From an archaeon (lineage in GTDB: Archaea; Asgardarchaeota; Hermodarchaeia; Hermodarchaeales; Hermodarchaeaceae), in NCBI GenBank assembly GCA_016550425.1, contig JABXGS010000231.1, positions 1 to 8,469 of the forward strand: a stretch of DNA of 8,469 nt, in the 5' to 3' direction. The notes under the pieces are model-generated. The model did not search any database. It was not told the DNA's origin and worked only from the letters and a program-made list of their open reading frames with translations. The position numbers and the translations under genes are program-made. Positions 6,058-8,469 of the stretch are shown piece after piece (the stretch's first letter is position 1; every line of letters begins with the position of its first letter).

Positions 6058-6843
6058 TTAACCTATCCATCCTAAATTCTTCACAGTAAGCAATAACCGT
6101 TCAGTTATCGGGAGTGCAACCAAAATACCCATCATCACTTGCATGAAATTGATAGGCAATTCGGCGATGGCTGCATATTGAAAGATGAAAAATTCATAGA
6201 GAAAATAGCCAGCTATTATTATGACCCCACCCATCAGCATCGAGGTAATATTCCAAGCTACTTTGGGATCGTATCTAAGTGTAAGAAAAATGGTCATTGA
6301 TCCAAGAAAGATAGCTAGTATAAACCAAACCCAAGAGGGAAGGAGGAAGGGAATTTCCCACCAAGGACTTCCCCAAGAGGCAAGTTCTCCACCAAAACGT
6401 AAAACGCCAATAACTACCATGCACACAGCTAAACCTAGCCCCATTCCAATTCCAAGATAACGCAGTTGTTTTGGTGCAAACCGCTCTCTAAAAGCCCAAC
6501 TCAGATAACCAACAGTAAATCCTTCAAACCCTTTAATCAGGAGAGTTCCAGGAGCATAGAGTACATAGCCTGTCGCCAGATCAGCGATCATTGACCCGAC
6601 ACCCCCTGCTACACCTCCAATAATGGGACCAAATAAGAGGGCAGTAATATATACTCCAACTTCACCGAGGTTGAAGTACCCTTGAGTTGCAGGAACGGCT
6701 ATTTGAAATGAGACCGTCAAGACTGCGACTAAAGCGGTCATAAGGGCCGCAATTGAGAGGAGAACTGTTTTGGGCATTTGAGGAATAAAAATTGATGATT
6801 CACTCATAAGAATCCATCCCAAATAGTGGGAGAAAACCGTCAT
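6058..6843 (-). CDS. ECF-transporter-type substrate-binding (S) membrane component
   Basis: A 261-residue integral membrane protein with about six or seven hydrophobic segments; the first is at about residues 26-50 and the last near 235-250. The stretch GYFNLGEVGVYITALLFGPIIGGVAGGVGSMIADL (55-89) is typical of S components of energy-coupling factor vitamin transporters: aromatic-N-L-G before helix 2, then a glycine-rich helix ending near Asp. The region between helices has a WGSPWW segment (about 153-158). S components bind one vitamin or precursor and share an ATPase/T module encoded elsewhere; none is in the window. The substrate cannot be read from sequence. The ATG at 6843 directly follows the stop of the kinase gene (TAAATG), so coupled translation is likely. 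A second ATG at 6807 after GGGATGG would remove 12 residues and also fits. Its pairing with a pantoate-kinase paralogue hints at a CoA-related or other phosphorylatable substrate, which is inference. Confidence 0.85.
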   Translation of the reverse strand: MTVFSHYLGWILMSESSIFIPQMPKTVLLSIAALMTALVAVLTVSFQIAVPATQGYFNLGEVGVYITALLFGPIIGGVAGGVGSMIADLATGYVLYAPGTLLIKGFEGFTVGYLSWAFRERFAPKQLRYLGIGMGLGLAVCMVVIGVLRFGGELASWGSPWWEIPFLLPSWVWFILAIFLGSMTIFLTLRYDPKVAWNITSMLMGGVIIIAGYFLYEFFIFQYAAIAELPINFMQVMMGILVALPITERLLLTVKNLGWIG

Positions 6844-7770
6844 TTATCTATATCTTGGTCCAACCAAGGATAAACCGGAAACGAATAGAGAATTGGGAGG
6901 AAAAAGATGCATTACTGAATGCATCACTGAATCAATTGCGTCAACATCGACTAAGGCATGAAAGGCGTCCCCAATCATATTCTGCGTCGCCCCAAGTGCT
7001 CCAGCATCAAGGACGACCTTTAGTACCTTCGCAATTCGCTGAGAAAGAAAACCAATTTTTTTTGCAAACCCAGAACATAATCTCATGAATCGAACAGGAT
7101 CGGGATTACCTAAAATTTGCTTTAACACACCCTGGCCTTCTCGATTAACGGCGACTAATGTTTCCTTTGAAAAAATAATATCTTTCTTTGAGATTGGAGC
7201 GAAGCTTCCTGTTACTATCCGATAGGAGGCATCAAAGGGTAACCAATCTACTCGATCATATCCAGGTGCTCCCGCTTCCAAAATTAAGATCATGCCACCA
7301 CGAAGGACCCCGCTCACAGTTCCCAGTCCAGTTGCACAGCGGATTTCAGCAAAATGCGCAAACTGTCCAATCCGATTTAACGTAAGATTCATTCCGAGAA
7401 GGCGACTGAGGGTCATAGCGGTACTAACAGCCCCAGCGGCACTTGCCCCATAACCCGCCCCGATAGGGACTTCCACTTCGTGATCGATATGGATGCAGAA
7501 GTTTTCGTCCACTTGACTAAGAAGTAACTGGCATACTTCATGTGTTACCTTAGCATCGGGTGCTTTCTTACCATTAATTGTGACTTCTATTTGGTTAGAA
7601 TCAGCGGATTCAACTTGTGTATGTGTATAGACTCCTTTCTCTAATATGAAGCCTCCACCTTTAGCCCCAACTCTATATGCAGCCTCCATTTCTTGGGGAG
7701 GCATTTCAGGGGTAACCGCTTGAAAGAAACTAGATATTCCTGCTGGGCAGAAGGCAGATACACGCTTCAT
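6844..7770 (-). CDS. Divergent pantoate-kinase-like GHMP kinase
   Basis: A 308-residue GHMP-superfamily kinase, clearly homologous to the gene at 7951 on the other strand: MKxxxAFxPxxIxxFFQ, the ATP loop PIGAGYGASAAGA (102-114), TGLGTV (147-152) and GxxPG align without gaps at the N-terminus. Archaeal pantoate kinase phosphorylates pantoate for CoA synthesis. This copy differs from its neighbour at positions that copy keeps: P9-A-G11-I in place of P9-G-H11-I, E142-I-R-C-A in place of E137-V-E-N-R, and I163 in place of R158 after the GG turn. The catalytic-type Ser110 and Glu142 remain, and the C-terminal GATQNMIGDAFHALV and SGLSLVGPRYR segments are present, so it looks active and full length. 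Specificity may have changed. The start is the ATG at 7770 (TTG at 7782 is the alternative); no strong Shine-Dalgarno is visible. It abuts the S-component gene downstream (TAAATG), forming a two-gene unit. Confidence 0.85.
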   Translation of the reverse strand: MKRVSAFCPAGISSFFQAVTPEMPPQEMEAAYRVGAKGGGFILEKGVYTHTQVESADSNQIEVTINGKKAPDAKVTHEVCQLLLSQVDENFCIHIDHEVEVPIGAGYGASAAGAVSTAMTLSRLLGMNLTLNRIGQFAHFAEIRCATGLGTVSGVLRGGMILILEAGAPGYDRVDWLPFDASYRIVTGSFAPISKKDIIFSKETLVAVNREGQGVLKQILGNPDPVRFMRLCSGFAKKIGFLSQRIAKVLKVVLDAGALGATQNMIGDAFHALVDVDAIDSVMHSVMHLFPPNSLFVSGLSLVGPRYR

Positions 7771-7845
7771 ATACTCAAACAATTGACCAACTATTCTTCT
7801 TTAAGCTAGTGGCAAATGATGGTTTGTTCCGGGAGGAAAGCCGTA

Positions 7846-7870
7846 TGAAATTTAAATAATTTAAATTTCA
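7846..7870. repeat. Perfect 25-nt palindrome in the kinase divergent promoter
   Basis: The arm TGAAATTTAAAT, a single central A, then the exact reverse complement ATTTAAATTTCA. It lies 76 nt before the ATG of the left kinase and 80 nt before that of the right kinase, almost exactly midway. Both strands contain TTTAAAT; the plus strand at 7851-7858 reads TTTAAATA, a consensus archaeal TATA box. It may be a two-way core promoter, an operator for a dimeric repressor covering it, or both. The symmetry is exact in sequence; function is inferred. The rest of the 7771-7950 gap shows nothing else I can name, apart from an AT-rich ATTTATTT at 7881-7888. Confidence 0.75.
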
Positions 7871-7950
7871 GTTACAGAATATTTATTTTCTCAATAGACA
7901 CCACGCACATAAAAGCTCAATCCCAGCTGCACCGAAGGCAGGCTCCAAAA

Positions 7951-8469
7951 ATGAAGAATAGTCGCGCGTTTTCCCCTGGGCACATCACAGGTTTTTTTCA
8001 AATCTGCGATGATTTTGAGAAGCCAATGGAAAAAGGATCGCGTGGAGCAGGTGTCTCAGTGGGCAGAGGAGTCACAACCTCGGTTAAAGCCAAATTCTCA
8101 AAGTCCCCTGCCAGCCACATTGAAATCAATGGAAATCCTTCCGTCCAAGCTCCGGTTTCCCAGGGAGTCCTTACTCATTTTCTTGAGTTCAAAGCCGACC
8201 AAAATTATCTCATTCACATACATCATCAGGTTGATTTACCAATTGGTGCAGGATTTGGGACAAGCGGAGCCGCTGCGCTGAGTTTAGCGTTGGCTTTGAA
8301 TGACGTCTTGGAATGTGACTTAACTAAACTAGAAGCAGCACAAATTGCTCACCTAGTAGAGGTTGAGAATCGTACCGGATTAGGTACGGTGGTAGCGGAA
8401 ATGGTAGGAGGAATTGAAATTCGGACCAGTCCTGGGGGACCAGGTGTTGGTCAAGTACAAACTCTGCCT
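7951..8469 (+). CDS. Pantoate kinase, 5' part (runs off right edge)
   Basis: The first 173 codons of an archaeal pantoate kinase are present; the C-terminal 40% or so lies outside. The enzyme phosphorylates pantoate to 4-phosphopantoate with ATP, the archaeal route to CoA, ahead of phosphopantothenate synthetase. Seen: the N-terminal family motif AFSPGHITGFFQ (6-17), RGAGVSVGRGVTT (31-43), the GHMP ATP loop PIGAGFGTSGAAAL (97-110), AHLVEVENRTGLGTV (133-147), and GGIEIRTSPGGPG (153-165) with R158. All match the canonical family pattern better than the divergent neighbour does. The frame is open upstream to a TGA at 7846-7848 but has no other ATG, and the MKNSRAFSPGH start fits homologues. No clear Shine-Dalgarno precedes it. 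It is head to head with its paralogue, 180 bp between start codons, around a perfect palindrome. Confidence 0.9.
   Translation, partial: MKNSRAFSPGHITGFFQICDDFEKPMEKGSRGAGVSVGRGVTTSVKAKFSKSPASHIEINGNPSVQAPVSQGVLTHFLEFKADQNYLIHIHHQVDLPIGAGFGTSGAAALSLALALNDVLECDLTKLEAAQIAHLVEVENRTGLGTVVAEMVGGIEIRTSPGGPGVGQVQTLP

Follow-up and report, generated by a model that had tools for sequence, protein, structure and literature searches.

A predicted pantetheine kinase encoded head to head with a pantoate kinase-like gene in a Hermodarchaeota-like archaeon

In CoA synthesis, CoaBC leads to the substrate of phosphopantetheine adenylyltransferase (PPAT). The carboxylate of pantoate is free, whereas pantothenate and pantetheine have an amide in its place. 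In the archaeal pantoate kinase of T. kodakarensis (PDB entry 6jbc) we take positions 10, 28 and 155 (His10, Ser28 and Arg155) to form the pantoate pocket, with Ser28 and Arg155 presumably responsible for pantoate recognition. Bacterial CoaA is not a GHMP kinase. According to two reports, the CoaA enzymes of B. subtilis and E. coli act as both pantothenate and pantetheine kinases, and the pantetheine route bypasses CoaBC (PMC11487621, PMC12570885). The former report also describes PanU, an ECF transporter S component (ECF-S) of B. subtilis that imports a CoA precursor, pantothenate, for phosphorylation (PMC11487621).

Here we analyse an 8,469-nucleotide stretch of DNA (the window) in which two kinase genes diverge from a common intergenic region (Table 1). 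The left kinase differs from the T. kodakarensis enzyme in having G, A and I at positions 10, 28 and 155 (its own G11, A36 and I163) and in belonging to a separate clade. Like CoaA, it would phosphorylate pantetheine and so lead around CoaBC; in CoaA, however, this is a second activity, whereas in the clade of the left kinase it would be the chief function and would have a dedicated operon. The likeness to PanU lies in the import of a precursor for phosphorylation. PanU carries pantothenate, whereas the archaeal S components are putative precursor importers, and in relatives of the left kinase the kinase gene and the S gene are linked.

Table 1. Positions of the two kinase genes and adjoining features in the window.
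Feature	Position	Strand	Description
ECF-S (PF07155)	6058–6843	minus	Directly behind the left kinase gene, same strand
Left kinase	6844–7770	minus	GHMP kinase, 308 aa from ATG at 7770; G10/A28/I155 clade; predicted pantetheine kinase
Divergent intergenic region	7771–7950	none	180 bp, common to both kinase genes
Palindrome	7846–7870	none	Perfect, 25 nt, 12-bp arms, 1-nt centre; candidate operator or back-to-back promoter element
Right kinase	7951–8469	plus	Apparent canonical pantoate kinase (H10/S28/R155), first 173 residues; gene cut by the window end

The best match of both proteins is the pantoate kinase 6jbc (E = 4e-27 for the left kinase, which is a GHMP-fold protein closest to that structure, and 1.5e-25 for the right one), and they align with each other at 36% identity over 179 columns (E = 4e-29). 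Coordinates and alignment agree with the first-pass annotation, which had described two homologous GHMP kinases lying head to head across one intergenic region. The residues it quoted are correct as well (G11, R144, C145, A146 and I163 on the left; H11, E139, N140, R141 and R158 on the right), and the first 17 residues do align without gaps, a 6-residue gap coming next. The window's ribose-phosphate diphosphokinase shares 81–88% identity with its counterparts at four loci, two titled Hermodarchaeota, one Hermodarchaeum yapensis and one ‘archaeon isolate H03M_Hermod_104’, which places the window in or near that lineage. Positions 1–486 encode a partial LipS2-like lipoyl synthase (148.8 bits; the full-model cut-off is 270).

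Among 5000 simulated intergenic sequences, 2 contained a perfect palindrome with arms of at least 11 bp; with an AT-rich make-up the count was 24 of 5000. Elements resembling the palindrome of the window were found at loci L002, L004 and L028, the last of which has no left-type gene there, and L001 is without one. The element may act as an operator, or it may consist of two TATA-like boxes.

Column counts separate the two kinases clearly. At the column of left G11, histidine is found in all 120 listed homologs of the right kinase (out of 1710 matches), and glycine in 36 of the 37 close and 82 of the 83 more distant listed homologs of the left kinase, with one gap in each set. The column of A36, which the first-pass annotation had not mentioned, holds serine in 116 of the 120 right-type homologs and alanine in 37/37 close and 80/83 more distant left-type ones. 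I163 aligns with Arg155 of T. kodakarensis. By these alignments, the telling differences are G11, A36 and I163. A family pattern of H11, E139-N-R141 and R158 had been proposed for the right kinase. Its H11 is indeed conserved; E-N-R as a family motif was rejected by the counts in the same 120 homologs, where the aligned columns contain E in 62, C in 117 and K or R in 111. By these counts, N140 of the right kinase is the odd residue and C145 of the left kinase the usual one.

The equivalents of Ser104, His131 and Glu134 are present in the left kinase and, together with the ATP-loop glycines, identical in all 37 close homologs. The ATP loop and catalytic residues are kept, as had been stated, and the idea of an inactive or regulatory paralogue, for which this conservation leaves no support, was rejected. 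The only Pfam matches of the left kinase are GHMP_kinases_N and MVD-like_N. Against the NCBIfam models NF040725 and NF041122 it scores 122.8 and 109.2 bits (cut-offs 500 and 380), the partial right kinase also falling short, so that these cut-offs tell little here. It matches none of the CoaA/CoaW pantothenate kinase models in Pfam and NCBIfam, and the domain of the bacterial CoaX pantothenate kinase (PF03309) was found neither in it by Pfam nor in any of 40 Asgard genomes.

At positions 10, 28 and 155 the right kinase carries H, S and R. At loci L001, L003 and L004 the gene in its position heads a same-strand operon that continues with phosphopantothenate synthetase (PPS), ketopantoate reductase, PanB and CoaBC. 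By its residues and these operon signs it looks like an ordinary pantoate kinase. A typing of 146 Asgard genes from 143 genomes (out of 186 with a match; most but not all of the listed places were taken in and one duplicate locus was dropped) gave 93 genes with R155. H10 and S28 accompany it in 91 of them, the other two being cut off there; 91 of the 93 also come from PPS-bearing genomes, with PPS inside the fetched stretch for 89.

In a phylogenetic check with 75 rows, the left kinase was placed outside the canonical pantoate kinases (split support 100/99). Its side comprises nine Asgard homologs, the kinases of genomes G027, G042, G021, G036 and G048 and all 23 Thermoproteota-like rows; on the other side are 23 canonical kinases, Loki- and Odin-like kinases with Arg10 (R10 kinases), H10/G155 kinases and sequence P0202. 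An earlier 61-row tree had PGR kinases and one PHR kinase beside the left kinase, which leaves their placement unsure. The R10 kinases, too, are of unsure placement: the 61-row tree groups them with the left kinase, the 75-row tree with the canonical enzymes. Both trees unite the left kinase with G027/G042 and the distant homologs (100/98 in the 61-row tree), and some of the distant homologs listed are named Bathyarchaeia. The Asgard sequences of the left type form a long separate branch (0.61 in the 75-row tree). P0202, inside the canonical clade, combines A28 and T155 with a retained H10, so the residue changes may have arisen more than once. The H10/G155 kinases lie directly behind CoaBC at L163, L165 and L184–L189, in eight small genomes of another phylum; PPAT precedes CoaBC in five of these eight loci, and PPS was not seen in the fetched stretches.

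The Thermoproteota-like relatives were sampled as the best 40 matches of the left-kinase profile among 398 genomes of a phylum that appears to be Thermoproteota, 363 of which had a match. An ECF-S gene lies directly upstream of the kinase gene on the same strand in 38 of the 40, and PPAT immediately follows the kinase gene, again on the same strand, in 34, all of which also have the upstream ECF-S. Both neighbours were assigned by similarity to a few queries; all three downstream proteins tested exceeded the NCBIfam cut-off for PPAT (168–188 versus 104 bits), and all three upstream proteins tested exceeded the Pfam cut-off for ECF-S (29–37 versus 26.7 bits). The ECF-S of locus L220 had no match among PDB sequences. 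PPAT does not adjoin the kinase in G645, G413, G630, G427, G600 and G603; G630 and G600 also lack the upstream ECF-S, and the downstream side of G600 ends at a contig edge. Position 10 of the 40 kinases is G in 21 and A in 19, position 28 is A in 39 and S in one, and position 155 is V in 18 and T in 17, with S, I, A, L and Q once each. Ser104 and His131 are present in 40/40; at position 134, 36 kinases have E and four have D.

Gene content of the same genomes was compared with that of 40 same-phylum controls, chosen among genomes listed with a lower-scoring kinase match; CoaBC was searched in these two sets and in Asgard genomes, and PPS in Asgard genomes. A strong CoaBC match (PF04127) was found in two of the 40 genomes of the left kinase's clade and in 25 of the 40 controls (Fisher P-value 4e-8, for genomes that are related, mostly drafts and not independent). 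The positive pair, G645 and G630, are both without PPAT beside the kinase; G764 had a weak match (21.7 bits). Fifteen controls lack a strong match too, and the match of control G620 was weak. Among 195 Asgard genomes, 165 have PPS and 174 have CoaBC. Five Asgard genomes (G021, G036, G048, G027 and G042) have a listed strong match of the left kinase's clade without a canonical one, three of them having a further, weaker kinase match that was not listed. In all five, from at least two lineages, PPS and CoaBC were undetected (P-value 9e-6 for CoaBC), no PanB was found over the cut-off (18.9 bits in G036), and dephospho-CoA kinase is present. G027 and G042 have S rather than A at position 28. Stand-alone CoaC-family flavoproteins (PF02441) occur in G027, G042 and G048, as they do in many CoaBC-bearing genomes, so a split pathway may operate.

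That the left kinase has a changed substrate, as the first-pass annotation had suggested, is well supported by its position outside the canonical clade, by the ECF-S/kinase/PPAT operons of its relatives and by the rarity of CoaBC among them. The idea that loss of R155 suffices to mark a new function was rejected, and this loss proves nothing by itself: 42 Asgard genes that combine R10 with a missing R155 come mostly from PPS-bearing genomes. The case rests on positions 10, 28 and 155 jointly and on gene context. We consider the left kinase to be a catalytically active relative of pantoate kinase within the GHMP family and, with confidence slightly better than even, take pantetheine as its most likely substrate. 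The CoA steps visible in the genomes of its relatives come after CoaBC, which points to pantetheine. Phosphorylation of pantetheine would yield 4′-phosphopantetheine, the substrate of PPAT, and CoA would then be made from a scavenged precursor, with PPS and CoaBC bypassed. A longer, uncharged substrate tail would fit the combined loss of His10, Ser28 and Arg155, which would remove the seat for the pantoate carboxylate and make room for the amide tail. The ECF-S would bring the precursor in. In the Hermodarchaeota-like lineage, where the de novo operon is present too, the left kinase would serve a salvage branch with a promoter region in common.

A GHMP-family pantothenate kinase, converting imported pantothenate to 4′-phosphopantothenate for CoaBC and bypassing pantoate kinase and PPS, was our first choice until CoaBC turned out to be rare in the clade of the left kinase; we now place it second and regard it as unlikely. 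CoaBC is present in the lineage of the window (L001, L003 and L004), so the product would be usable there, and PanU offers a precedent for pantothenate import by an ECF-S in B. subtilis (PMC11487621). Further support comes from the Odin-like genomes G007 (one contig of 1,418,269 bases) and G017, in which an R10 kinase, ECF-S, an LpxC-like protein and CoaBC form a run, and PPS, PanB and CoaX were undetected; these R10 kinases are perhaps pantothenate kinases. However, they have Arg10 and lie outside the clade of the left kinase in the 75-row tree, sharing only a wider branch with it in the 61-row tree. The CoaBC counts given above (two of 40 Thermoproteota-like and none of the five Asgard genomes) and a neighbour that is PPAT in 34 of 40 operons, not CoaBC, also speak against this reading. 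The LpxC-like proteins beside the R10 kinases score 22.6 bits (L046:8753-9505) and 26.1 bits (L045:5635-6414), the Pfam cut-off being 27.

Within its own lineage the left kinase has a different setting. All three Hermod genomes carrying it also have the canonical kinase and PPS, and PPAT adjoins it neither in the window nor at the Hermod loci that were fetched. The ECF-S of the window belongs to another S subfamily than those of the distant relatives: its scores against the ECF-S of G042 and those of two Thermoproteota-like operons do not exceed 30 bits, with no match reported for the Odin-like one, whereas the G042, Odin-like and Thermoproteota-like proteins score 85–224 bits among themselves. 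Among solved complexes, the window's ECF-S does match the S protein of 4hzu (E = 2e-12). Proteins of the window type (51–68% identical) are encoded opposite the canonical operon without a left kinase in G013, G029, G037 and G054. For both reasons adjacency to this ECF-S was downgraded as independent proof. In G004 the left gene (L004, G004:C26:50041-50959) lies in three pieces in different frames with internal TGA and TAG codons, while the canonical copy and ECF-S read through; the break may be an assembly error. Together with the four genomes that have the ECF-S without the left kinase, it suggests that the left kinase is dispensable there. An open reading frame that by eye is of the TnpB/OrfB transposase type (L003:8926-9603) lies between the left gene and ECF-S in L003 and accounts for the 788-bp gap between them. 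Given this ECF-S and the broken gene of G004, we argue the function of the left kinase from its clade and not from its own neighbours.

The distinct ECF-S subfamily with its match to 4hzu, and the long Asgard branch, would also suit a kinase outside CoA metabolism that acts on another imported vitamin or hydroxy compound. We regard such a role as rather improbable: the left gene lies back to back with the CoA operon, the window-type ECF-S faces that operon even where the left kinase is missing, and positions 10 and 28 agree with the Thermoproteota-like copies adjoining PPAT.

It seems very improbable that the left kinase is a further pantoate kinase whose pocket has been rebuilt and which serves imported pantoate: a canonical pantoate kinase already adjoins the left one, no PPS for phosphopantoate was detectable in the five Asgard genomes of the left type, and the R10/L155 Asgard kinases that favour this reading, being the only typed copy in 42 genomes, of which 39 have PPS (so that a pantoate kinase without R155 seems possible), have Arg10 and Ser28, neither of which is found in the left kinase. 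Also in favour of this reading, added pantoate is reported to raise the growth of the Asgard isolate MK-D1 (PMC11316595). The 42 Loki-like loci with R10 and without R155 (for example, L061:6799-7764) perhaps encode pantoate kinases whose arginine now lies at another position.

Returning to pantetheine as the substrate, we give an even chance to a broader proposal: that a clade of archaeal pantetheine kinases together with an ECF transporter and PPAT makes up a minimal CoA salvage module, which in many archaea (Thermoproteota-like genomes and at least two Asgard lineages) would take the place of the pathway as far as CoaBC, and which Hermodarchaeota would keep beside complete de novo synthesis. 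A literature search over titles and the openings of abstracts, with subscription papers mostly outside its scope, returned no description of a GHMP-family pantetheine kinase or of such a module.

Proteins named ‘pantoate kinase’ comprise at least two groups, which probably differ in substrate and can be separated by three residues and gene context. A 2019 study lists as exceptions archaeal groups, including Bathyarchaeota and Korarchaeota, without homologs of pantoate kinase and PPS (PMC6650551). For some archaea the clade of the left kinase provides a testable answer: they may phosphorylate scavenged pantetheine rather than build CoA from pantoate. If this is true, such archaea need a CoA precursor from their neighbours, which bears on how they might be cultured.
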